From NCBI RefSeq assembly GCF_900100875.1, contig NZ_FNKQ01000003.1:62001-126000 (forward strand): DNA of 64,000 nucleotides. The letters are read 5' to 3'. The translations under genes were made by a program, and so were the position numbers. Positions 29,913 to 40,703 of this stretch are shown in pieces. How positions within the stretch are numbered: position 1 is the first letter of the stretch; each line of letters opens with the position of its first letter. This DNA comes from Halopelagius longus (GTDB lineage Archaea; Halobacteriota; Halobacteria; Halobacteriales; Haloferacaceae). Under the pieces are notes generated by a model. That model saw nothing but the letters and a program-made list of their open reading frames with translations. It made no database searches and was not told where the DNA came from.

Positions 29913-32900
29913 TCACTCCCGCGGGCACCGCCCGGTCGGCGTCTCGCATCCGGGGCCGGGTTCCGTACCGTCCCACGCGGGCGATTTCTCGACCGCGTCG
30001 CCGTCTTTGTCGCCGACGCCGAGTCTCCCCGGCGGGACGACGACGGGAACGACCGTTCGCACGTCGAACCCGACGCGTTCGCTCCGGCCGAGCGTCTCCT
30101 TGACGCCGTCGCCGTCCACGTCGAGGGCGACGACGCTCCCGTCTCGGACGTACGTGACCGGCGTCTCGCCGCCGCGGTCCGCGGATACGGCGAAGCGAGC
30201 GTACTCGCCGCGGGCCTCCACGACCCAGAGGTTCGTCGTCGCAACCCACGGGTTCAGCGTCGGCGAGAGGGGGAGGCCGGCGGGCGTGCCGCCGAGGGAG
30301 GCGTACTTCTGGGCGGCGCGTTCGGTCCCGCGCCCCGCCGCATCCGTCAGGAGTTTCGTCCCGACTTTGCGCGTCCGCGACACCGTCCGGTTGGTGGCGC
30401 GTTGCGGCACGCGAACGGCGGACTCCGTCGCCGCGGCGGCGACATCGACGCGAAGCGCCGTCTCCAGCCGGTCGCGGGCCGTCGCGTCAGTCGGTTCGAC
30501 TTCGGCGGCGACGGCCGCCGCGAACGACCCGTTCGTCGCCGCGACGGCGCGTCGCCCGGTCCCCTCCCACCGATCAAAGGCGGCGTTGACCGCCCTGCGA
30601 CGGTCGTCCTTCGGGAGGTCGGTCTCCGCGCCCAACGTCTCGACGGCCCGCGAGCGAACGGCGCGGAGCGAGTCCTCCGTCTTCCGTCGGAGCGTGTCGC
30701 GGCGACCCGCCAGCGTCTCGTCGTCGGTGGTCGCGAGCGTCCGGTTCGCGGCGGTGAGCGCCTTCCCCGCCGTCCGGAGCGACACCGACTCGCCGGACCC
30801 GAAGAGGGCGTTGACGACCGCGTCGGAGGCGTCCCCGTACGGGAGCGTGAACACGTTGGTGTTGCGCGCCGCGAGGGGGTAGTACCGCGTTTCGTCGCCG
30901 ACGCCGTCCACTCGGTCGCCGGAGACGGGCTTCACGGAGAGGTACGCCGGGTCGCCGTCGGGAACGAACGCCGCCGACCCGCCGAGCGTCGAGTCGTTCC
31001 CGTACTCGTGGCGGGCGGGCGTCCGAACCGTGCGGTTGGCCGCGATGCGGTTCGCCCGTTCGGCGTCGACACCGCGGTCGACGAGGGCCTCCTCGATGCC
31101 CTCGTTTCGGGCCGCGGTCCGATTCGCTCGCTCGTCGAGGGCCGCGAGGAGTCGGTTCAGGTAGGCCGCCCGCGCCGCGACGCGGACGCGGTCCGCCGCC
31201 CCATCGTAGGAGTCGGGGGCGGCCACCAGCGACGCGCGGCGCTCTCGGATGACACTCGCCAACCGGGCCGCGGGGTTGACGCGGCCGGTCGCGACCGCCC
31301 GCGCGGGCGGTTCGACGGCGACGTTCCGAACTCGCTCGCGGAGAGACGCCACGTCGTCGTACACCCACGCGCGGAGTTCGTCAGGGCGTCGGCCGTCGAC
31401 GGTCGTGACGACCGGTTCCTCGCCGCCGACCGCCCGGCGGGCGACGGCGTCCGCGCCGCCGCGTTCGGCGAAGGCGTCGCCGACGGCGTCGGGTACCTGT
31501 CGAAGGTTCGGCCCGTCGACTGCGCCGCCGCGTTCGAAGAGCGGGTCGACCGGTCGCTCCGGCCCCGGAACCGATGCGAGCGAGCCGGTGACGGCCATCT
31601 CGACTCGGTAGGCGTCGGTCCACGTCGCATCCGTACTTCGGGACGAGCGGTTCGCGTGTCGCCACGTCCGTTCGACGCGGTGCTCGACCACGACGCGCCG
31701 GACGGCGGTGTCGAAGACGCGTTCGCCCGAATCGGTCCGCGGCCGAGTCGCCGTCCCACCGGCCGATTCAACGCGCGTCTCGCGGGACGTCTCCTGTCCG
31801 GTCATCGCCCACCCCTCTCCGGGGGCGTCCGGCGCGGGACGGGATCCGTCTCGGACCGTCGTCGCGTCCGACTGGACCGTCACCCGCACTCGGTAGCCGT
31901 CGCGGCGAATCGTCTCGAACCCCGCGCGTTCCCCGTCGCCGCGGAGGAACTTGACGAACGCCTCGTCGGCCGTGCGGCCCACGTCGACGCGGAGCGTCTC
32001 GTCCGTCGAGGGCGGCGCGGCGGTCGGTATCGTGGCGTTCTCCGATTCTGGGGGCGCCGCGGCGTCGGTCACGCCGTCGGCGATGAACGCCGCCCCGTCG
32101 CTCCCCGCGACGGGCGTGAGAACGTCCGTGAGTCCGGTTCGGGCGGTCGCCCGCCGAACGCCGCGGCGGGCGTCGGGGTCGCTCCGGCCGAACGCGGCGC
32201 GTTGGGCGGTCAGGAGGCCGGCGTTCGTCGAGAGTTCGACGTGCCGGTTCGCGAGGACGTTCTGAATCGGCGCGCCGGCGTACTGGGCGGCCCCTCGCAC
32301 CTGCACGACGCCGAGGAGTCCCGCCGTCGTCCGGCGGGCGAGTCCCGGGGATTCGAGCGGATTTGCGTCGAGTCGACGCTGGTAATCGACGGTTCGGTCG
32401 TGGAGTCCGAGGACGGGGACGGCTACGGTGAGCGTCCGGGTGACCGACTCCTCGGCGACCATCCGTCCGTCGCGTCGGGCCGTCAGCGAGACGTTCCTGA
32501 CTGTGACGCGAAGTGCGGTTCCGTTGGCCGTCTTGGCGACGGAGACTCGACGTATCGCCTCGCGGACCGACGACTCGTTTTTCGGGGTCGCCGGACAGCG
32601 TCCGGCGGCCCGACAAGCGCTGCTCGTCGGCGTCGGCAACGAGGCGTTCGCAACCACGTCGCCGCGTTCGTGTTCGACCGAGCGAAGCGACTCCGCCGCG
32701 GCGAGCGAAATGCGGAGACGGAGATACCGACGGAACGTCCGATTTTCCCCCAGCACTTCGCCGACGGCGGTGGTCGAGTTGTCGGTCACGGGGTCGCGCG
32801 CGGCGGCGAGTGCGGCGTCGTGGGCGGCGGTTCGGAGCGCCGTCGTCGTCTCGGCGTCGATTCGGTCCATCGACTCGTCGACGGTCCGGTCGGCGGCGCT

Positions 32901-33008
32901 GGGTCCCCCCGTCGCGAGCGACGCGCCGTACGTCGAACTCGTCACGAGGAGGAGGACGCCGACGAGGGCGAACGGGACGCGCCCGCGGTTGTCGTCCGCG
33001 AGGCGCAT
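29913..33008 (-). CDS. Large pilus-cluster surface protein (DUF7286 type)
   Basis: 1031 aa, last gene of the pilus cluster. One N-terminal hydrophobic helix (about residues 11-31, 'PFALVGVLLLVTSSTYGASL') after 'ADDNRGRV' suggests a pseudopilin-like or signal-anchor start. The rest is a long, mainly hydrophilic exoplasmic region rich in Asn-x-Thr/Ser sequons (for example 'NRTF', 'NGT', 'NVSL', 'NRTVS'), consistent with a heavily N-glycosylated surface protein. I recall this as DUF7286. It overlaps the preceding gene by one base (TGATG). It may be a tip or adhesin-like subunit; that is inference from size, topology and context. Confidence 0.8.
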   Translation of the reverse strand: MRLADDNRGRVPFALVGVLLLVTSSTYGASLATGGPSAADRTVDESMDRIDAETTTALRTAAHDAALAAARDPVTDNSTTAVGEVLGENRTFRRYLRLRISLAAAESLRSVEHERGDVVANASLPTPTSSACRAAGRCPATPKNESSVREAIRRVSVAKTANGTALRVTVRNVSLTARRDGRMVAEESVTRTLTVAVPVLGLHDRTVDYQRRLDANPLESPGLARRTTAGLLGVVQVRGAAQYAGAPIQNVLANRHVELSTNAGLLTAQRAAFGRSDPDARRGVRRATARTGLTDVLTPVAGSDGAAFIADGVTDAAAPPESENATIPTAAPPSTDETLRVDVGRTADEAFVKFLRGDGERAGFETIRRDGYRVRVTVQSDATTVRDGSRPAPDAPGEGWAMTGQETSRETRVESAGGTATRPRTDSGERVFDTAVRRVVVEHRVERTWRHANRSSRSTDATWTDAYRVEMAVTGSLASVPGPERPVDPLFERGGAVDGPNLRQVPDAVGDAFAERGGADAVARRAVGGEEPVVTTVDGRRPDELRAWVYDDVASLRERVRNVAVEPPARAVATGRVNPAARLASVIRERRASLVAAPDSYDGAADRVRVAARAAYLNRLLAALDERANRTAARNEGIEEALVDRGVDAERANRIAANRTVRTPARHEYGNDSTLGGSAAFVPDGDPAYLSVKPVSGDRVDGVGDETRYYPLAARNTNVFTLPYGDASDAVVNALFGSGESVSLRTAGKALTAANRTLATTDDETLAGRRDTLRRKTEDSLRAVRSRAVETLGAETDLPKDDRRRAVNAAFDRWEGTGRRAVAATNGSFAAAVAAEVEPTDATARDRLETALRVDVAAAATESAVRVPQRATNRTVSRTRKVGTKLLTDAAGRGTERAAQKYASLGGTPAGLPLSPTLNPWVATTNLWVVEARGEYARFAVSADRGGETPVTYVRDGSVVALDVDGDGVKETLGRSERVGFDVRTVVPVVVPPGRLGVGDKDGDAVEKSPAWDGTEPGPGCETPTGRCPRE

Positions 33009-33880
33009 CAGGCGGCCCTCCCGTCGGACTCCCACGTCCGAACGACGACCCGGACCCGGTGGACTTCGACCGCCTCCGCCGCCGCCTCCGGCGACTCGAA
33101 CCGGTCGCGCAGGTCCGCCTCCACCGCGGGCGCGAGGGCGTCGGCGAGGCGGCGGTTCAGCGCCGTCGTGTTCTCCGCGCGGAGGTCCCGTTCGACGGGG
33201 ACGCCGAGTTCGTGTCCGAGGCGGCCGTATCGGTGCCACATCAGCGCCGAGACGGGGTAGTCGCCCCGAAGCGCGAGCGACGCGGCTTCGGGCGGGACGA
33301 GCGCTTCGACGGTTCGCTCGGCGACGGCCGACGCGAGCGTCCCGAAGTCGTCCGCCGCCGACGAGGGTACCGGTTCGACGCCGCTCGGTACCGACAGCGT
33401 CGCGGCGTGGACCGTCGCCGCCGACGGCGGTTTCGCCCCGACGCCGACCCGTCCGCCGACGGTCGAACCTGGGTAGGGACGCCACACCGCGTCGACGCGG
33501 AGCGAGGACGCCTCGAACGCGCCGGTGACCGCCCCGCGAACGGCCCGCGGGAAGTCGTCCCGCGCGCCCGTCAGCGAGTCGTTTCCGAACCCGGCGGTGG
33601 CGACGGCGGCGCGCGCGAGGAGGCCCGCGAGCGTCCCGTGCGTCGTTCGGCGGAACTCCGACCCGTTCTCGCGGGGGAACGCGGCGGGGGTGCCCCGCAC
33701 CGGGCCGGTTCCCGGCCGAAGCGAATACTCCACCGTCGCGGTACTCGTCGCGAGCGTCTCCGCGGCGGCGTCCGTGCGCGTCGAATCTCCCGTTTCGACG
33801 GGGTCGGAGACGGCGGTGACGCCGAAGACGGCCGCGCCGACGAGGAGGAGACAGACCGCGGCGTCGACGGCGGCGTTCAT
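33008..33880 (-). CDS. Pilus-cluster single-TM protein (DUF7284 type)
   Basis: 290 aa. The start at 33880 gives 'MNAAVDAAVCLLLVGAAVFGVTAV', a very short N-terminus followed immediately by one hydrophobic helix, then an exoplasmic domain ('LATSTATVEYSLRPG', 'TTHGTLAGLLARAAVAT', 'ALMWHRYGRLGHELGVPVERDLRAENTTALNRRL'). A longer frame upstream is just overlap with the neighbour. It overlaps the previous gene by 4 bp (ATGA) and the next by 1 bp. Pilin-like topology. Family name DUF7284 is recalled, not checked. Confidence 0.75.
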   Translation of the reverse strand: MNAAVDAAVCLLLVGAAVFGVTAVSDPVETGDSTRTDAAAETLATSTATVEYSLRPGTGPVRGTPAAFPRENGSEFRRTTHGTLAGLLARAAVATAGFGNDSLTGARDDFPRAVRGAVTGAFEASSLRVDAVWRPYPGSTVGGRVGVGAKPPSAATVHAATLSVPSGVEPVPSSAADDFGTLASAVAERTVEALVPPEAASLALRGDYPVSALMWHRYGRLGHELGVPVERDLRAENTTALNRRLADALAPAVEADLRDRFESPEAAAEAVEVHRVRVVVRTWESDGRAA

Positions 33881-34287
33881 CGCCACACCGCCACGCGGAG
33901 GCGTCCGGGGACGACGGACCCGGGACCGAAGCGGACGCTCGTCGTCCGACTCGCCGCGTCGGTCGGCGTCCCGTTCGGCGGCGTCGGACCGGCCGTCCAC
34001 CGCCGGTCGCCCGCGGTGAGCGTGACGTTCAGTCGGCGTCCGTCCGGTGCCGCCGATTGCGCCGTTCCGAGCGCAGACGGGTCGGCGACGCCGCCGTCCG
34101 CGAGTTCCTCGGAGACGCGGTGGAGCGTCGGGTCCGCGTACGTTCGGTCGTCGCCGAGGGCGGCGGTCCCGCCGAGGGCGACGACGTAGATGCTCACGCC
34201 GGTACAGACGGCGAAGAGGGCGACGAGGGCGGCGAGCGGAGACGCCTGCCCCCGTTCGCGACCCTCACGCGTCCACGAGAACGACAT
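33877..34287 (-). CDS. Pseudopilin-like protein (DUF7285 type)
   Basis: 136 aa. 'REGRERGQASPLAALVALFAVCTGVSIYVVAL' places R-G-Q-A just before a Ser-Pro and one hydrophobic helix. This agrees with the archaeal prepilin-peptidase consensus [KRDE][GA][ALIFQMVED][ILMVTAS], so cleavage after A15 is predicted. The rest is a small beta-rich domain ending 'GSVVPGRLRVAVWR'. Overlaps the upstream gene by 23 bp and the downstream by 4 bp, so tightly coupled. Probably a minor pilin. DUF7285 by recall. Confidence 0.75.
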   Translation of the reverse strand: MSFSWTREGRERGQASPLAALVALFAVCTGVSIYVVALGGTAALGDDRTYADPTLHRVSEELADGGVADPSALGTAQSAAPDGRRLNVTLTAGDRRWTAGPTPPNGTPTDAASRTTSVRFGPGSVVPGRLRVAVWR

Positions 34288-34744
34288 CGACTCCCTCCCA
34301 AGAGGTGCGGCGAACGATGAGCGTGCGGTCCACGTCGCGCCACGTCGCGGTATCCGACTCCACGCGTGCGTCCACGATAGCCTGCTGAAACGCCGCCTTC
34401 GACTCGAAGACGCGCTCCGGCGGAGCGCCGTGCAGGACCGCTCGGAGCGGCGAATCGCCGGTCGGGACGGGCGTTACGGGGCCGAATCCGAACGTCGCGT
34501 GCGCGGTTCCGGCGTCGTTTCGCAGCGAGATGCGCCGAGTGCCGAGTCGGACCGAAGCGGCGTCGAGCGGATGTTCGGCGGTGGCGTCGTACTCCGCGGC
34601 GGCCACTCGGTCTACGGTCTCCGCGGCGTCCGTCGCGTTCGGCGGCGGCGTCGTCGGGAGACCCGCGACGGCGCCGACGAGTGCGAGACTCGCAAGCGAC
34701 AGTCCGAACCACGCGTACCACGAGTCGAGGGGAACGTCGAGCAT
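34265..34744 (-). CDS. Pilus-cluster single-TM protein (DUF7283 type)
   Basis: 159 aa, first gene of the second transcription unit of the cluster. 'MLDVPLDSWYAWFGLSLASLALVGAVAGLP' is a signal-anchor, then a soluble domain 'VRLGTRRISLRNDAGTAHATFGFGPVTPV', 'LIVRRTSWEGVDVVLVDA'. The ATG is set by a TATATAAA box 26 bp upstream (leaderless). I recall the same N-terminus in haloarchaeal DUF7283 proteins next to PilB/PilC. Function unknown, probably part of the pilus or secretion machine. Confidence 0.78.
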   Translation of the reverse strand: MLDVPLDSWYAWFGLSLASLALVGAVAGLPTTPPPNATDAAETVDRVAAAEYDATAEHPLDAASVRLGTRRISLRNDAGTAHATFGFGPVTPVPTGDSPLRAVLHGAPPERVFESKAAFQQAIVDARVESDTATWRDVDRTLIVRRTSWEGVDVVLVDA

Positions 34745-34766
34745 GGGGGTGCTGGCCGCCCGCCCG

Positions 34767-34774
34767 TATATAAA
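34767..34774 (-). promoter_or_regulatory. TATA box of the second pilus transcription unit
   Basis: Minus-strand TTTATATA, centred about 26 bp before the ATG at 34744, inside the 42-bp spacer after pilC. Exactly 21 bases, including GGCCAGC, separate TTTATATAC from the ATG, the same as at the pilB promoter (38497-38504). Confidence 0.7.
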
Positions 34775-34786
34775 GTCTCGCAGGGA

Positions 34787-36517
34787 TCAGAACAGAAGCG
34801 ACGCGCCGGCGAACGCGGCGAGGTACGCCCCCGTCGCCGCCAAGAGAGCGAGACCGACGCGGTAGCCGACGAGCGTTCGGTCGAGCCCCCGGTCGAGTCC
34901 GGTCGAGAGCATCGTCAGCAGACCGGCGAGACAGAGCGCGTACGCGCCAACCGAGACGCCGAGCGTCCCCGTCGAGAGCGCCGTCGCCTCGCCCGAAAGC
35001 GAGAGGTCCGTCTCGGCCATCCGCGCCGCCATCGCCACCGTCGCGCCCGCGACGAGGGGCGCGAAGAACGCCGCCGTGTTCGCGAGCGTCCCGGTCACGG
35101 AGGACAACTGTCGCCGCGCCTCGCGTTCGACGCGCCGGAGTTCGCGGAGGTGGTCGGCGGTGGCGACGATAGCACCGCCCGCCGGTCGGCCTTCGGTGGC
35201 GGCGACGGCGAGAAGCGCGGCGGCACCCCGCGTTCGCGGGCTCGGAACGTCCGCGAGCGCGCCGTACTCGCCGAGGAACGCCTCCCGAACGCCGACGCGG
35301 AGTCGCCGTCGAACCCCGGCGGCGTCAGACAGCATCTCGCCCGTCGCGCCGTCGATGTCATCGGCGGCGTCTTCGACGGCCGTCTCGACCGCCGTTCCGT
35401 CGTCCACGCGCCGGCCGACGAGGTACAGGGCGTCGTCCAGTCGGGACTCCACGTCGCGGACGCGGCGACGGACGCGGGCCATCGGATAGTAGTGGGCCGC
35501 CAGCGACGCGCCGAGACCGAATCCGGCCGCCGCGACGGGCGACGCCCACGAGGCGACCACCCCGCCGCCGACCCATCCGACGGCGACGCCGACGAGCCCG
35601 GCGAGTACTCCGCGGTGCGGACCGGCGGTCACGTCCGGGTGGTCGCTCCCGACGCGCGGCGGCGGGAGGGCGACGGGACGGCGCACGAGCAACCACGCGC
35701 TCGCCGCGACGACGACGAGGGGCAGGAAGACGTTGTAGGCGAAGACGAACGCGCTCGTCGGGAGCGTCAGTCCCGCGGCGCGGGCGGCGGGGAGGACGCC
35801 GACCAACGCGAGGGGTAACAGGACGCCGAAGGCGTACAGCGCCGTCGTCGGCCCGCGAACCGTCGACGCGAAGTCGGCCATCTCGTCGTGCGTCCCGTCG
35901 AGAACCGCCTCCAGCGCTCGGTCCAGCGACCGACTCCGCTCGCCCTCCGCGGCGTCGGCGCTGGTGAGGAGAAGCGAGACCGAACGGTCGACGGCGGGGA
36001 ACCACGGCGACCACTCCTCGGCGAACGACTCCAGCGCCGACTCCGGTGCGCCGCGCGCCCGCCGGACGTGGGATTCGAGGCTCTCGGAGAGGGGGCCGTC
36101 GCCCGTTCTCGTGGCGAAGAGCGCGGCGCGTTCGGGCGTCGGTTCGAGTCGCATCCGGAGGGCGGCACGCCCCACGAGGTCGGCCGTCTCGCCCAGCGCG
36201 CGCGTCCGTCGGAGCGCCGCCATCCCGACCGGGAGTCGATGGACCGCGTGCGTCGCCGCGAGACCCGCCGTCACCGCGAGGAGGAGTCGCGTGACGACCG
36301 GAGACGCCGGCGCGAGGAGCGTCGAAGCGACGAGGACGACCAGCGACGCCGGAACCGCGGCGACGTACCCCGCCCGCACGACGGTTTCGGCGTCCACGTC
36401 GACGCCGAGAAACGCCGCCGACCGCCGAAGGTCGTCGCCGACCGACACCGGCCACGGGTACGCCCGGGCTAGCTCTCGTGCGAGCGTCGTCGCCGTCGAG
36501 TCGCCGCTTGCGTCCAC
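34787..36517 (-). CDS. PilC/TadC-type pilus assembly membrane protein (T2SS F family)
   Basis: 576 aa. Two T2SSF-like halves, each ending in membrane helices: residues about 45-95, 215-300 and 325-360, then three or four near the C-terminus ('FFAPLVAGATVAMAARMAE', 'LCLAGLLTMLSTGLDRG', 'ALLAATGAYLAAFAG'). The cytoplasmic loops contain 'VESRLDDALYLVGRRVDDGTAVETAVEDAA' and 'LRRVEREARRQLSSVTGTLANTAAFFAPLV', typical of archaeal PilC/FlaJ-like platform proteins. It anchors pilin polymerisation in the membrane with the PilB ATPase, whose gene lies one base upstream. Confidence 0.9.
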   Translation of the reverse strand: MDASGDSTATTLARELARAYPWPVSVGDDLRRSAAFLGVDVDAETVVRAGYVAAVPASLVVLVASTLLAPASPVVTRLLLAVTAGLAATHAVHRLPVGMAALRRTRALGETADLVGRAALRMRLEPTPERAALFATRTGDGPLSESLESHVRRARGAPESALESFAEEWSPWFPAVDRSVSLLLTSADAAEGERSRSLDRALEAVLDGTHDEMADFASTVRGPTTALYAFGVLLPLALVGVLPAARAAGLTLPTSAFVFAYNVFLPLVVVAASAWLLVRRPVALPPPRVGSDHPDVTAGPHRGVLAGLVGVAVGWVGGGVVASWASPVAAAGFGLGASLAAHYYPMARVRRRVRDVESRLDDALYLVGRRVDDGTAVETAVEDAADDIDGATGEMLSDAAGVRRRLRVGVREAFLGEYGALADVPSPRTRGAAALLAVAATEGRPAGGAIVATADHLRELRRVEREARRQLSSVTGTLANTAAFFAPLVAGATVAMAARMAETDLSLSGEATALSTGTLGVSVGAYALCLAGLLTMLSTGLDRGLDRTLVGYRVGLALLAATGAYLAAFAGASLLF

Positions 36518-36518
36518 G

Positions 36519-38474
36519 TCAGTTCACCTCCCGTTCGCGGTAGGCGGTCCGGACGTCTTCGGGGCGGGTCCTGTCCGTCTCGGCGAGGCGGCCGAGGTGC
36601 GTCGCGCGTTCGTCGAGGGCGTCGAGAACGTCGGCGTACGTCTCGGCCGGTTCCGCGAGCGACGCCGCGAGTGCGCTGTCGCCGCGTTCGATTCGGCCCG
36701 TCGCGTCGAGTCCGTCCGCGTCCGACTCGTAGAGCGTCTCGAACCGTACGCCCTCCTCGCCGGTTCGCACCTCCTCGATGGCGGCGACGCGCCTCCTGGG
36801 GCCGTCGCGGGCGCACGTCACCACGAGGTCCGTCGCGCCGAACGCCGACTCGGCGACGCCGAGGTCGGAGACGACGCGCTCCCGGACGGCCGCCGCGGAG
36901 TCGCCGTGTATCGTCCCGAGGACGGCGTTGCCGTGTGCGCCGACGCGCATCGCCTCGTACAGCGTCCCCGCCTCCTCGCCCCGCACCTCGCCGACGACGA
37001 GAGCGCCGTCGCCGAGTCGGAGCGCCGTCTTGAGAGCGTCGTCGGGCGAGAACGACCCCTCGCCGCCGTCGAGTTCGACGGTGAGCGGTTGCACGTCGCG
37101 GCCGCCCTCCCGGAGCGCTTCGACCGGTAGTTCCGGCGTGTCCTCGACGGTGACGAGGCGCGTCGCGTCCGGGAGTTCCCAGAGTAGCGACCCCAAAAGC
37201 GTCGTCTTCCCCGCTCCGCGCGTCCCCGCCACCAGCGCCGCCGCCCCGCGTTCGGCGGCGAGAGAGAGGAGGGCCGCCGCGTCGGCCGGGAGGGTGCCCG
37301 CCGCGACGAGTCCCGGGAGCGTCCACGCGTCGTCGCCGTGTGCGCGGAACGCGAAGCCGATACCGTCGCTGGCGGGCGCGGTGACGCCCGCGACGCGAAC
37401 CTTCGTCCCGTCGGGGCGCGTCACCGAGGCGTCGAGTGCGGGCGTCGCGCGCGAGAACGCCCGTCCGCTGGCGCGGCGGAACCGCGAGGCGAGGGCGGCC
37501 GCGCCGTCGGCGGTGAGTCGGACGTTCGTCCGCACCCGTTCGCCGTCGAGAGTGACCCGGACCGGGTTCTCCTCGACCGGCGCCGACGCCACCACGTCCG
37601 TGACGCGCGGGTCGGCGAACAGGTCGTCGAGGACGCCGTTTCCGCGGGTGTACCGCCGAAGCACGTCCGTCAGCGTCTCGACGGGCGTCGAGTCGTCCGC
37701 GACGCGGCGGACGGCGCGGCCCGGTGCGCGGTCACCGCCCTCGACTCCGCCTCTGGCGAGGCAGTCGTACGCCGATTCGAGCGTCGCCGTCGCGGCGGGG
37801 TCGAGAGCGTGCGCGACGGGCGTGAGGTGATAGAGCGTTCCGTCGGGCGTCTCGTACGCGCGAACGGTCGCGCCGGACGGGAGTTCGCGGCGGTCGAGGA
37901 GCGACGCCCCGGCGGGCGGGCGAAGCGTGACGCGCGAACGGGCGACCGACGGCCCGACGGCGGGCCGAATCGCGTCGTCGTACCCGTCCACTCGCGCGGC
38001 CCCCTCTTCGAGACCGGTTTCGGCGACGATTCGGCCGACGGCCCCGGCGCGTCCCGCCGCCTCACGCGCCGCGCCGAGTGGGTCGCGCCGGGCGCGGGCG
38101 GCGAGCGATTCGTCGTGAAACTCGACGCGTTCGACGAACCGGCCCGCCGCGAGGAGCAGTCCCGCGGCGTCGCCCTCGTACGTCCGACCGACGCCGTCCG
38201 CGACGGTTCGGACGACGTCGGCGTCGCGGGTCGCCAACGCGCCGACGACCGTCGCGCGGCAGTCGGGACTCGAAGCGAGGTCACCGCCGCCGGGACAGTC
38301 GTCGGCGTCCACGACGAGTTCCGCGCGCCGTCGGTCGGACCGTCCGGCGGGCGTCTCGAATCGCGGGTCGCAGCGACAGGCGTCGTCTTCCGAGTCCGTT
38401 CCGGAGCGAACCGCCCCGACTCCCGCCGTGACGGCGGATACGAGGTTCAGATCGGCGTCGAAATCGATCGGCAT
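36519..38474 (-). CDS. PilB/TadA-type secretion ATPase (GspE family)
   Basis: 651 aa. Walker A 'GTRGAGKTTLLGSLL' near residues 413-427 and Walker B 'GALVVGEVRGEEAGTL' near 487, with the Asp box 'VTVEDTPELPV' and His box 'GTIHGDSA', mark the secretion ATPase superfamily. The N-terminal ~300 residues include a Cys pair region ('DACRCDPRF') and the N2-like 'LFADPRVTDVVASAPVEENPV'. It powers pilin polymerisation or export. The ATG at 38474 is fixed by a TATATAAA box 26 bp upstream; longer upstream reading is spurious. The pilC ATG follows the stop after one base. Confidence 0.93.
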   Translation of the reverse strand: MPIDFDADLNLVSAVTAGVGAVRSGTDSEDDACRCDPRFETPAGRSDRRRAELVVDADDCPGGGDLASSPDCRATVVGALATRDADVVRTVADGVGRTYEGDAAGLLLAAGRFVERVEFHDESLAARARRDPLGAAREAAGRAGAVGRIVAETGLEEGAARVDGYDDAIRPAVGPSVARSRVTLRPPAGASLLDRRELPSGATVRAYETPDGTLYHLTPVAHALDPAATATLESAYDCLARGGVEGGDRAPGRAVRRVADDSTPVETLTDVLRRYTRGNGVLDDLFADPRVTDVVASAPVEENPVRVTLDGERVRTNVRLTADGAAALASRFRRASGRAFSRATPALDASVTRPDGTKVRVAGVTAPASDGIGFAFRAHGDDAWTLPGLVAAGTLPADAAALLSLAAERGAAALVAGTRGAGKTTLLGSLLWELPDATRLVTVEDTPELPVEALREGGRDVQPLTVELDGGEGSFSPDDALKTALRLGDGALVVGEVRGEEAGTLYEAMRVGAHGNAVLGTIHGDSAAAVRERVVSDLGVAESAFGATDLVVTCARDGPRRRVAAIEEVRTGEEGVRFETLYESDADGLDATGRIERGDSALAASLAEPAETYADVLDALDERATHLGRLAETDRTRPEDVRTAYREREVN

Positions 38475-38496
38475 GGCGTCGCTGGCCCCGTCCCGG

Positions 38497-38504
38497 TATA
38501 TAAA
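38497..38504 (-). promoter_or_regulatory. TATA box of pilB-pilC
   Basis: Minus-strand TTTATATA about 26 bp before the pilB ATG at 38474, in a 56-bp spacer after the pilin-like gene. Its sequence and spacing nearly copy the promoter at 34767-34774. Confidence 0.7.
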
Positions 38505-38530: not shown

Positions 38531-38992
38531 TCACGCCCGTCGAACGACGACGACGGGTCCCTCGGGTCGGGAGAGAAGCGAGAACGAGAGCGCGTGCGAC
38601 CCCGACCCGCGGAGGACGACAGGGCCGTCGGGCGTCCGCAGTGGAACCGGCAGCGACAGTCGCCGCACCGTCTCCCGGCCGCCGGAGAGGGCGTACGTCA
38701 GAACCGGCCGGGACCCCCTCTCCCCCGGTTTGCCGCCGACGGCGACGTACGAGACGCCGGCGGCAGTCCACGAACGTGCGGGGACGCTGACACGGACCGT
38801 CCGCCGCGGGGCCGTCGAGAGCGAGAGCGTCGGGTCGTCGCCGTACGCGAGCGATTCGACGGCCCGGACCATGCGCTCTGCGTCGGCGTCGAGATTCGTC
38901 GCCGCGCGGTCGGCGCGGGCGTCCTCGACGGCCGGAAGCGCCGCCGCGAGGAGTGCGGCGGCGAGCGTCGCCGCGAGGAGGAGCCGAATCAC
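38531..38992 (-). CDS. Small pilin-like exported protein (DUF7311 type)
   Basis: 153 aa. 'MIRLLLAATLAAALLAAALPAVEDARADRAATNLDADAERMVRAVESL' is one N-terminal hydrophobic helix followed by an amphipathic helix, exactly the shape of a pseudopilin. A beta-rich domain follows ('TVRVSVPARSW', 'YVAVGG', 'PVVLRGSGSHALSFSLL'). No clear prepilin-peptidase site precedes the helix, so cleavage is uncertain. It starts one base after the stop of the coiled-coil gene. DUF7311 by recall. Confidence 0.72.
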   Translation of the reverse strand: MIRLLLAATLAAALLAAALPAVEDARADRAATNLDADAERMVRAVESLAYGDDPTLSLSTAPRRTVRVSVPARSWTAAGVSYVAVGGKPGERGSRPVLTYALSGGRETVRRLSLPVPLRTPDGPVVLRGSGSHALSFSLLSRPEGPVVVVRRA

Positions 38993-38993
38993 C

Positions 38994-39539
38994 TCAGAGC
39001 GCCCCGCGGAGGCGCGCCGCGAGGGAGTCAGTCTCCTCCTCCGCGTCGGAGGCGTCCGTTCCCGTCCGGTCAGCCCTCGTCCCCTCGTCCGCCGCCTCCG
39101 ACAGGTCGTCGACGGGGACGCGTTCGACGACGAGTTCGTCGCCGTCGGCCTCCGGCGATTCGAGCCGTTCTATCGCCGCGAGGGCGGCGTCGGCCTTGCG
39201 TTCGACCGACTCGTCCACCGCGCGGACGCCGTCGAGGAGGCCGCGTACGGCGTCGAGTTCGGCTTCGAGCGTCTCGACTCGGTCCCGAAGCGCCTCCATT
39301 TCGGCGTCTCTCCCCGCCGTGTCGGCGTCCGCGTCTTCGACGCGCGCGCCGGTCGTCTCCCCGTCGTCGTCCGCCGGAGCGGACGTGTCAGTCGCCGGCG
39401 AGTCGACGCCGTCGCCGTCGCCGGTCACCGCTCGTTCGACGGCGTCGAGACGGGCGGCGAGCGCGTCGAAATCGGCGGAGTTCGTCCGTCGGTCGGTCGA
39501 GCGTCGCTCGGCGGTACCGCGCGTCGAGTTCGGAGCCAT
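38994..39539 (-). CDS. Acidic coiled-coil protein heading the pilus cluster (DUF7310 type)
   Basis: 181 aa. A coiled coil is evident at about residues 18-35 ('FDALAARLDAVERAVTG') and 80-130 ('MEALRDRVETLEAELDAVRGLLDGVRAVDESVERKADAALAAIERLE'), with heptad-spaced Leu/Val. Acidic disordered linkers surround it. No membrane segment, so cytosolic. The ATG at 39539 is chosen over one at 39563, because the latter overlaps the TATA box and 39539 lies 28 bp from it. Divergent from cetZ. It may organise the ATPase complex; inference only. Confidence 0.75.
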   Translation of the reverse strand: MAPNSTRGTAERRSTDRRTNSADFDALAARLDAVERAVTGDGDGVDSPATDTSAPADDDGETTGARVEDADADTAGRDAEMEALRDRVETLEAELDAVRGLLDGVRAVDESVERKADAALAAIERLESPEADGDELVVERVPVDDLSEAADEGTRADRTGTDASDAEEETDSLAARLRGAL

Positions 39540-39562
39540 GGGCCGACTGGTCACGTCATCCA

Positions 39563-39570
39563 ACTTAAAC
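39563..39570. promoter_or_regulatory. Possible bidirectional TATA between the pilus cluster and cetZ
   Basis: ACTTAAAC reads as GTTTAAGT on the minus strand. It is about 28 bp from the coiled-coil ATG (39539) and about 49 bp from the cetZ ATG (39615). No other good TATA-like sequence lies in the 75-bp spacer, so both directions may use it. Confidence 0.5.
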
Positions 39571-39614: not shown

Positions 39615-40703
39615 ATGAAAACCGTCCTGATTGGCGTCGGACAGGCGGGTGGCAAGCTCACCCGGGAACTGGCCGACTTCGACTCTCGAATGGGCTTCGG
39701 GGCCGTCCTCGGTGCCGTCGGAGTCAACACCGCAGAAGCAGACCTCCAAGAACTCCCGTTCGAGACGGTCCTCATCGGACAGGACCGCGTGAAGGGTCAC
39801 GGCGTCGGCGGCGACAACGAACTCGGCGCGGAAGTGATGCAGTCGGACAAACAAGAGGTGCTCGCCGCCCTCGAAGGTCGAATCACCGCCGAGGCGGAGG
39901 CCATCTTCGTCGTCGCCGGACTCGGCGGCGGCACCGGGAGCGGCGGCGCGCCGGTCCTCGTGAAGGAACTCAAGCGCATCTACGACGTGCCCGTGTACGC
40001 CCTCGGCGTCCTCCCCGGCCGAAACGAGGGCGCGATGTATCAGGTGAACGCCGGCCGGTCGCTGAAGACCGTCGCGCGCGAAGCCGACTCGCTGCTCCTC
40101 GTCGACAACGACGCGTTCCGCGCCACCGGCGAGAGCCTCGGCGAGGGGTTCGACGCAATCAACCGCGAAATCGCCCAGCGGGTCGGCCTGCTGTTCGCTT
40201 CGGGCGAGGCCGTCGAGGGCGTCGGCGAGAGCGTCGTCGACTCCTCGGAGGTCATCAACACGCTCCGCTCCGGCGGCATCGCGGCGCTCGGGTACGCCTC
40301 TGGCGAGTCCGCCGAAAACGCGGAGGGGAACATAAACACCGTGATGAGCACGACCCGTCGCGCGCTCATGACGGGGACGAGCCTGCCGGAGGCGAACGAA
40401 GCCGACGCGGCGCTTCTCGTCGTCGCGGGCGTCCCCGACAAGATTCCGCGCAAGGGCGTCGAGCGCGCCCGGCGATGGCTCGAAGAGGAGACGGGCAGCC
40501 TGCAGGTCCGCGGCGGCGACTTCCCCCTCGACAGCGACCGAATCGCGTCGCTGATTCTGCTCGGCGGCGTCGAACGCTCCGACCGACTGGAGAAGTTCAT
40601 GGCGCGCGCGAAGGAGGCCCAGAAGGAAGCCGAGGAGGAAGCCGAAAAGCAGGAAGACCCGGCGGACGCGTGGCGGAACGACGAGCTCGAAGACCTGCTC
40701 TGA
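39615..40703 (+). CDS. cetZ: CetZ tubulin-superfamily GTPase
   Basis: 362 aa. The tubulin signature GGGTGSG is at residues 104-110 within '[18 protein letters not shown]'. The N-terminus 'MKTVLIGVGQAGGKLTREL' and 'VGVNTAEADLQ' are GTP-binding loops of CetZ rather than FtsZ. The C-terminus is a charged helical tail ('AKEAQKEAEEEAEKQEDP'). CetZ proteins control cell shape and motility in Haloferax (recall: CetZ1 for rod shape). Of the paralogues this looks nearest to CetZ2 by its N-terminus, unverified. ftsZ1 is encoded separately at 62469-63617. Confidence 0.92.
   Translation: MKTVLIGVGQAGGKLTRELADFDSRMGFGAVLGAVGVNTAEADLQELPFETVLIGQDRVKGHGVGGDNELGAEVMQSDKQEVLAALEGRITAEAEAIFVVAGLGGGTGSGGAPVLVKELKRIYDVPVYALGVLPGRNEGAMYQVNAGRSLKTVAREADSLLLVDNDAFRATGESLGEGFDAINREIAQRVGLLFASGEAVEGVGESVVDSSEVINTLRSGGIAALGYASGESAENAEGNINTVMSTTRRALMTGTSLPEANEADAALLVVAGVPDKIPRKGVERARRWLEEETGSLQVRGGDFPLDSDRIASLILLGGVERSDRLEKFMARAKEAQKEAEEEAEKQEDPADAWRNDELEDLL

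Follow-up and report, generated by a model that had tools for sequence, protein, structure and literature searches.

A haloarchaeal core-promoter module that may define a DNA-uptake (competence-like) regulon

A 64,000-nucleotide stretch of the Halopelagius longus genome (contig NZ_FNKQ01000003.1, positions 62,001 to 126,000; hereafter the window) carries a pilus-type gene cluster in which similar promoters stand before the secretion ATPase gene pilB and the genes for a DUF7283 and a DUF7310 protein. Our analysis strongly supports the placement of the pilB and DUF7283 promoters in one shared promoter class. We propose that pilB, DUF7283, and DUF7310 are each started from a leaderless promoter of this special class, in which a TATA box, TTTAART, is rigidly coupled to GAR-nn-CGSGRCSA, spanning about -21 to -9. 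This region is little conserved in the other leaderless promoters of the same genome. Judged from sequence, the chance that this core-promoter module defines a DNA-uptake (competence-like) regulon in haloarchaea seems to us about even.

The module in the window and in orthologous clusters

All three promoters are on the minus strand and have the first T of the TATA box 30 bp 5' of the start codon, where a leaderless-type TATA box is expected at about 27 bp. The module before pilB, TTTATATACCGGGACGGGGCCA, occupies 38483..38504 (ATG at 38474; 25.1 bits); that before DUF7283, TTTATATACGGGCGGGCGGCCA, occupies 34753..34774 (ATG at 34744; 20.0 bits) and fits entirely within the 42-bp gap between pilC and DUF7283; and that before DUF7310, TTTAAGTTGGATGACGTGACCA, occupies 39548..39569 (ATG at 39539; 20.9 bits). 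These scores come from a matrix trained solely on other genomes, and the three modules are the only window matches above 14 bits. The DUF7310 copy, which is missing from the preliminary description of this DNA, is one of two zero-mismatch matches to our first consensus pattern in the whole genome.

That description had singled out an identical TTTATATAC 21 bp before the pilB and DUF7283 start codons, a GGCCAGC in both spacers, and a separation of only 42 bp between pilC and DUF7283. We located the two TTTATATAC copies at 38504-38496 and 34774-34766 (minus strand) and GGCCAGC in the same register of both spacers (positions 9-15 of 21), and the sequence likewise bears out the 42-bp gap. The likeness in the order of G/C runs, also mentioned there, is real and was understated, since orthologs conserve a 13-bp stretch 3' of the TATA box. 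In the window, TTTATATAC has 2 exact matches and 4 with one mismatch allowed, against a mean of 0.24 in shuffles. The searched genome (3.87 Mb, 8 contigs) holds 17 occurrences, four of which sit 20-22 bp 5' of the ATG of an open reading frame (ORF) of at least 150 aa, and two of these four are pilB and DUF7283.

We compared the promoters with known haloarchaeal arrangements, citing published work here and below from excerpts of the papers. The basal elements given for haloarchaea are a TFB-recognition element (BRE) CGAAA, a TATA element TTWT, and WW at -10 (PMC4983044). As in the leaderless basal promoter, the TATA box here stands at the expected distance and the start codon where transcription should begin; unlike it, an additional GC-rich GAR-nn-CGSGRCSA replaces the -10 WW, which is absent with CGSGRCSA in its place, and the arrangement recurs before a particular gene set. 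Transcription would probably begin at or next to the start codon. Upstream of the TATA box the window promoters read CGAGG or CGAGA, where the BRE is quoted as CGAAA, and orthologs have weak preferences at -37 (pilB) and -34. The CsmR regulon of Haloferax volcanii (PMC13286277) is similar in that a haloarchaeal promoter motif unites surface-structure genes, but the CsmR site, TATCA(N4)TGATA, is upstream of BRE/TATA. Inspection by eye of the pilB and DUF7283 promoters revealed no such site.

DUF7283 was found in 30 of the 59 genomes of the order, H. longus included, and in 28 of 44 good genomes. Besides the H. longus region, we collected 30 ortholog regions from 29 other genomes; pilB, pilC, and DUF7283 are adjacent in 28 of the 30, as is the pilC-like gene to pilB. 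The preliminary description had proposed a search for the paired layout in other PilB/PilC clusters, and there the rigid 22-bp module TTTAART-nn-GAR-nn-CGSGRCSA was present in 55 of 58 non-H. longus pilB and DUF7283 promoters aligned on TATA. The first T lies 30 or 31 bp from the start codon in the aligned promoters, and 54 of the 55 have the same distance between TATA and the terminal A. The most conserved columns were G9 (46 of 55), A10 (48), C14 (43), G15 (50), G17 (45), C19 (52), and A21 (54). Our alignment rule favored TTTA and C-[CG]-A at 19-21 (at least 5/7 matches), so that columns 0-3 and 19-21 are partly selected, while columns 9-18 played no part in choosing the alignment.

Three of the 58 promoters were left out of matrix training (L058 pilB, L075 pilB, and L077 DUF7283). 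No module was seen in the L058 pilB promoter; at L075 the pilB start is misassigned and a module is visible there. Outside the training set, Halosimplex salinum, Halolamina salifodinae, and H. pelagica have the module before both pilB and DUF7283, and two of the three also have it before DUF7310. A fourth locus checked alongside them, a distant bacterial match, had no module. In two genomes of one genus (L069, L073), a DUF7311-DUF7283 cluster stands without adjacent pilB and pilC, and DUF7283 is still module-bearing.

The module beyond the pilus cluster

We scanned 864 kb of the H. longus genome (the window plus forty 20-kb pieces) with the matrix from the other genomes. A threshold of 18 bits gave 16 sites, where ten column-permuted matrices averaged 0.3; raising it to 20 bits left 12 sites against 0. 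Because pieces with known sites were included, the site density is overstated: five pieces (L144-L148) had been picked for already-known sites, and leaving them out reduces the 16 sites to 11; the run C3:280-580 kb likewise contained known sites, the permuted controls having been scored on identical DNA. A frame of 50 codons or more begins 30-31 bp downstream of 11 of the 16 sites, 34 bp downstream of one, and 37 bp downstream of another; of the remainder, two precede small-RNA-like sequence and one precedes nothing. Among 44 leaderless genes with TTTAW in the same 864 kb, the stretch after TATA has no comparable conservation, and SGRCSA occurs at offset 16 in four, two of which are the pilB and DUF7283 promoters. 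A strict pattern found 39 sites in ten other genomes (present in 7 of the 10) and 0 when reversed. One loose pattern was discarded, as its matches were mainly coding noise.

These counts bear on whether the two promoters are simply ordinary leaderless promoters that happen to look alike. Leaderless transcripts are the haloarchaeal norm, making up 72% of the protein-coding transcripts of Haloferax volcanii (PMC4983044). Against this stand the conservation of 13 bp beyond the TATA box in orthologs and the 16 sites where 0.3 were expected; ortholog conservation leads us to reject plain chance and plain leaderless promoters, and coincidence is scarcely credible.

The genes behind the module in H. 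longus include MinD/ParA-type ATPases (Pfam CbiA, 9e-12), a TctA-family membrane protein (Pfam TctA, 6.4e-50), a PLD nuclease, and a protein with a NucS_N domain. The PLD nuclease matches PLDc_2 in two stretches and has an N-terminus that is hydrophobic by eye; it may be secreted. The module also precedes an XPD/Rad3-like helicase (at 37 bp), a DUF4013 protein (at 34 bp), a DUF7857 protein, a HerA-type ATPase that diverges from a DUF7382 protein, and a weakly Cas4-like protein whose match is under curated cut-offs. Weaker sites stand before a type IV pilin (14.0 bits) and before a helicase (14.4 bits) that we take to be Hel308-like.

To count the module by family, we took the 30 best-scoring loci of each, H. 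longus included, and called a module at 12 bits or more with the same matrix. It was present, with an in-frame open start at leaderless distance, in 29 NucS-like, 28 TctA-like, 24 PLD, and 19 MinD/ParA loci. Without H. longus, 96 of 116 promoters of these four families pass, and their columns (C14 86, G15 91, C19 91, A21 93) repeat the consensus, the 96 having themselves been picked by a score of at least 12. A motif-only search of ten genomes recovered many orthologs of these genes (30 of 39 sites inspected). For background, the module was found in 3 of 2196 sequence windows in NucS/XPD loci and in 7 of 664 ORFs of the H. longus sample, genuine sites among them.

These frequencies also speak to the idea of a constitutive core-promoter variant, in which the GC-rich part would be an extra basal strength element without a shared regulator and the genes would share a need, not control. 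The fixed TATA-to-terminal-A spacing (54 of 55) is what a core element would be expected to have. A general strength element fits poorly, however, with a module that marks the same few genes, not a random set, in many families and is found in 7 of 664 ORFs but in 19-29 of 30 orthologs of four genes, and we consider this explanation improbable.

The preliminary description had read the pilB and DUF7283 promoters as a matched pair that coordinates the pilus machine with the surface subunits. The pair is indeed matched and conserved. In the 26 genomes with both promoters (H. longus included), CGA replaces CCA in both for five and in one for five, as judged by eye, and the two 22-mers differ at a mean of 6.5 positions within a genome against 8.3 between genomes (0 of 20,000 permutations; kinship not controlled). 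In 15 of these genomes, again with kinship not controlled, the two promoters are closer to each other than either is to the NucS-like promoter (permutation p 0.001 against 0.03 and 0.15). This within-genome likeness, exceeding both permuted pairs and the likeness to the NucS-like promoter, is what a pilus-specific balancing of machine and surface subunits would lead one to expect. Many non-pilus genes stand behind the module, however, also in genomes without a DUF7283 match, and matching of the pair is therefore not the full explanation. Because other gene families carry the module, we reject pilus-only regulation, which appears very unlikely.

Several module-bearing loci contain further genes. 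At L130, the module (6500, minus strand) is followed by a 57-aa frame that ends right where an RPA gene begins, and in G051 (L252) RPA again follows a module and a short frame. A gene for transcription factor B (TFB) lies near a module-bearing MinD-like gene (L142, 5371, plus strand) behind a weaker module of 17.6 bits, 35 bp before the ATG; its product is a candidate regulator of the module. A KaiC/RecA-like frame, named by eye, directly follows a module-bearing MinD/ParA gene (L168, 4786-6060, minus strand). In G056, the Cas4-like gene behind the module (L382) has an early stop after 33 codons and could be a pseudogene or reflect a sequencing error. Five XPD-like promoters without the full module (L203, L206, L208, L212, L215) have, at leaderless distance, TATA and an element that ends in GCGTAAC, GCTAC, or GCTAA and may represent a diverged version.

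The gene cluster and the small-RNA candidates

The genes of the window cluster follow one another on the minus strand in the order DUF7310 - DUF7311 - pilB - pilC - DUF7283 - DUF7285 - DUF7284 - DUF7286 (named by Pfam, pilC by position). The PilB-type secretion ATPase (651 aa; 36519..38474; T2SSE, 3.3e-19) has four cysteines within its first 80 residues, which from the translation we would call rich by eye. The PilC/TadC-like membrane protein (576 aa; 34787..36517) matched 0 families in the Pfam scan and is assigned by its position and conservation beside pilB. DUF7283 (159 aa; 34265..34744) matches PF23954 at 1.7e-57. The DUF7310 coiled-coil protein has 181 aa when read from the promoter-fitting ATG at 39539 (38994..39539); its Pfam match (PF23991, 3.8e-16) was obtained with a longer ORF beginning at 39563. 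DUF7311 (38531..38992; PF23993, 1.7e-45) lies between DUF7310 and pilB, 56 bp from the latter. The DUF7285 gene (33877..34287; PF23956, 1.9e-36) overlaps the end of DUF7283, and the two are likely on the same transcript; read-through may additionally join pilC and DUF7283. ORF limits are given for the DUF7284 gene (33008..34000; PF23955, 6.2e-91), with an uncertain start, and for the DUF7286 gene (29913..33485; PF23957, E 0), whose true start is probably near 33010 because the Pfam match begins at residue 164. A cetZ-like gene, named by eye, diverges from the cluster at 39615.

The cluster fits a type IV pilus of subclade 4F, in which, according to Makarova et al. (PMC4858521), the ATPase is Cys-rich at its N-terminus and has a partner with a coiled coil. 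The cysteine-bearing N-terminus of the ATPase and the coiled-coil accessory protein DUF7310 correspond to these, and DUF7310 is probably arCOG07564. The excerpt of that account covers gene content and phylogeny, and we saw no promoter element in it.

Not all module sites precede genes for proteins. In G056, 16 of the 20 module sites fetched precede no long ORF, and we list the sequences behind them as small-RNA candidates (L383-L390, L392-L397, L399, and L400; n = 16 in one genome). Three candidates on the plus strand of H. longus, C1:87887, C1:898982, and C1:1028043, correspond to L081, L082, and L156. Most candidates open with a GTGACCTGA-like sequence, which reads as two codons followed by a stop, and continue with a stem (about 7-13 bp) and a CTGT or CTGC box. 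We scored the pairing of the 8 bases ending at the box with the loop end, for which 3 of 26 candidates were unusable, L081 and L082 among them. An RNA formed a mean of 6.3 pairs with itself against 5.0 when swapped (0 of 20,000 permutations), and at least 6 pairs formed in 17 of 23 RNAs against 34% of swapped combinations, with 15 pair types. An earlier and looser test, based on the longest complementary stretch at any position, gave no separation between own and swapped RNAs (p 0.22); the position-fixed test was defined after that outcome, and its result depends on the definition. From sequence, the candidate fold of this dispersed family is a stem and a covarying H-type pseudoknot before the CTGT/CTGC box. 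An Rfam scan of 20 small-RNA and related loci found no family matching the RNA, the sole match up to E 0.1 being a miRNA model that scored under its gathering threshold and fell outside the RNA. The three genomes G046, G035, and G006, which share a genus, each have a copy of the small-RNA candidate downstream of the TctA-like gene (L271, 3328; L272, 3781; L275, 3317; all plus strand).

A possible DNA-uptake regulon

The set that recurs in the order comprises type IV pilus assembly genes, pilins, MinD/ParA, TctA-like, PLD nuclease, RPA, weakly Cas4-like, XPD-like, and NucS-like proteins, and the small-RNA candidates. We infer a common factor and an uptake function for it. Such fixed spacing points to contact with the initiation complex itself, through a particular TFB, or with a regulator beside the complex of TATA-binding protein (TBP) and TFB, and a common trans-acting factor is plausible, with TFB as one candidate. 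Haloarchaea have multiple TFBs, and the set would be switched jointly by a transcription factor of its own, in the simplest case one of these TFBs or a regulator that binds between TATA and the start site. It could be an activator or a repressor.

In the proposed uptake pathway, the pilus would capture DNA, the surface nuclease would cut it, the TctA-like protein would import it, and the helicase, RPA, and nucleases would process what was imported. The comparison behind this proposal is with Methanococcus maripaludis, where genes reported to be essential for natural transformation include those of a type IV-like pilus, of a TctA-like protein with 11 helices, of a nuclease that bears a secretion signal, and of a MinD/ParA ATPase and its operon partner; a TctA-like homolog is also required in Methanoculleus thermophilus, and the TctA-like protein has been proposed as the DNA transporter (PMC10133366). 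Both sets have a type IV pilus, a TctA-like protein, a MinD/ParA ATPase, and a nuclease, which in the haloarchaeal one may be secreted. The haloarchaeal set differs in being defined by promoter and not by phenotype, and in adding RPA, XPD-like, weakly Cas4-like, and NucS-like proteins and the small-RNA candidates. Our list had been compiled by promoter sequence before the comparison was made. Because it contains the same four classes together with single-stranded DNA-binding, helicase, and nuclease proteins, we put DNA uptake first and a damage or stress regulon second, and rate uptake as the function of the set at close to, or slightly short of, an even chance. A fuller version, offered tentatively as possible but less than evenly likely, is that a single factor jointly induces a pilus for catching DNA, a nuclease at the surface, an importer of the TctA-like kind, DNA-processing proteins, and pseudoknotted small RNAs present in multiple copies, and that haloarchaea would be transformable under the right condition through a transporter unrelated to ComEC.

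The genes might instead answer to DNA damage or stress, much as Sulfolobus induces pili and DNA-exchange genes after ultraviolet (UV) irradiation; pili would then be induced by lesions for aggregation and exchange, together with repair proteins. RPA, XPD-like, weakly Cas4-like, and NucS-like proteins and the HerA-type ATPase carry the module and would suit such a response. In Sulfolobus, the UV-promoter motif reportedly lies upstream of TATA. The Sulfolobus Ups pili take part in aggregation and DNA exchange, and the ups UV-inducible promoters resemble ours in placing pili and DNA-exchange genes under a shared motif (PMC5817253). That motif is, however, a different one, a hexanucleotide (PMC5817253), and the haloarchaeal element is directly downstream of TATA. 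The TctA-like protein, moreover, is among the best conserved of the set (28 of 30) and is no known repair protein, and its methanogen homologs are required for transformation. We regard a damage regulon as unlikely, though worth weighing.

Several observations count against a single DNA-uptake regulon. The roles of RPA, NucS-like, and helicase proteins extend beyond DNA uptake, and the nuclease of the set belongs to another family (PLD) than that of Methanococcus. No OB-fold partner was seen beside the TctA-like gene, as judged by eye only, and the ComEC family PF03772 had no match in the H. longus genome by Pfam. Naturally competent archaea are likewise reported to have no identified ComEC homolog, and their transporter is unknown (PMC10133366). 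The module itself is unevenly distributed: 16 of the 30 best XPD-like loci lack a 12-bit module, 13 of the 14 XPD-like modules have no in-frame start 28-35 bp away, and 11 of the 30 best MinD/ParA loci lack it. At least one match above 18 bits (L124) has no following start codon. Looser patterns were less clean than the strict one: in H. longus two of them gave 71 and 48 sites, with 15 and 17 when reversed, and in ten genomes the count was 163 against 36 for the reversed pattern.

The pilus part of the set varies between genomes, which also weakens the case for one unit. Of the 44 good genomes, 16 have no DUF7283 match, and all 44 have TctA-like and PLD matches; because the 16 keep TctA-like and PLD, the DUF7283 pilus is not tied to the rest of the set. 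In genomes that gave no DUF7283 match, the module stands before a different T2SSE ATPase (L247/L421 in G053) or before pilins scoring above the Pilin_N cut-off (G005, G034, and G056). In two genomes of one genus, the module precedes a pilB N-terminal part joined to DUF5791 (L410, 500-1408, plus strand, in G005; L415, 1669-2553, minus strand, in G053), with 51% and 40% identity, respectively, to the pilB part over about 147 residues (Pfam, BLASTP). The same searches ruled both out as PilB ATPases, as there is no ATPase part. In G056, which belongs to another family, the module precedes a weak DUF7310 start joined to a DUF7286 end (L398, 536-1318, plus strand). From their sequences, these fusion-like proteins are apparently remnants of a lost pilus cluster, which suggests that the pilus was lost independently and the promoter retained.

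A search of the open-access literature, judged by titles and the starts of abstracts, returned no description of this element or of a haloarchaeal competence regulon; subscription papers and preprints were outside the search, and the result is not proof of novelty. Independently of the Methanococcus work, the module brings together the pilus, TctA-like, MinD/ParA, and nuclease classes in a second archaeal group, and tractable haloarchaea would allow the resulting gene list, a reporter, and a search for the regulator to be tested. If the proposal is true, haloarchaea, with their several TFBs, would provide a clear example of a regulon defined by a sequence-specific element that lies between TATA and the start site.

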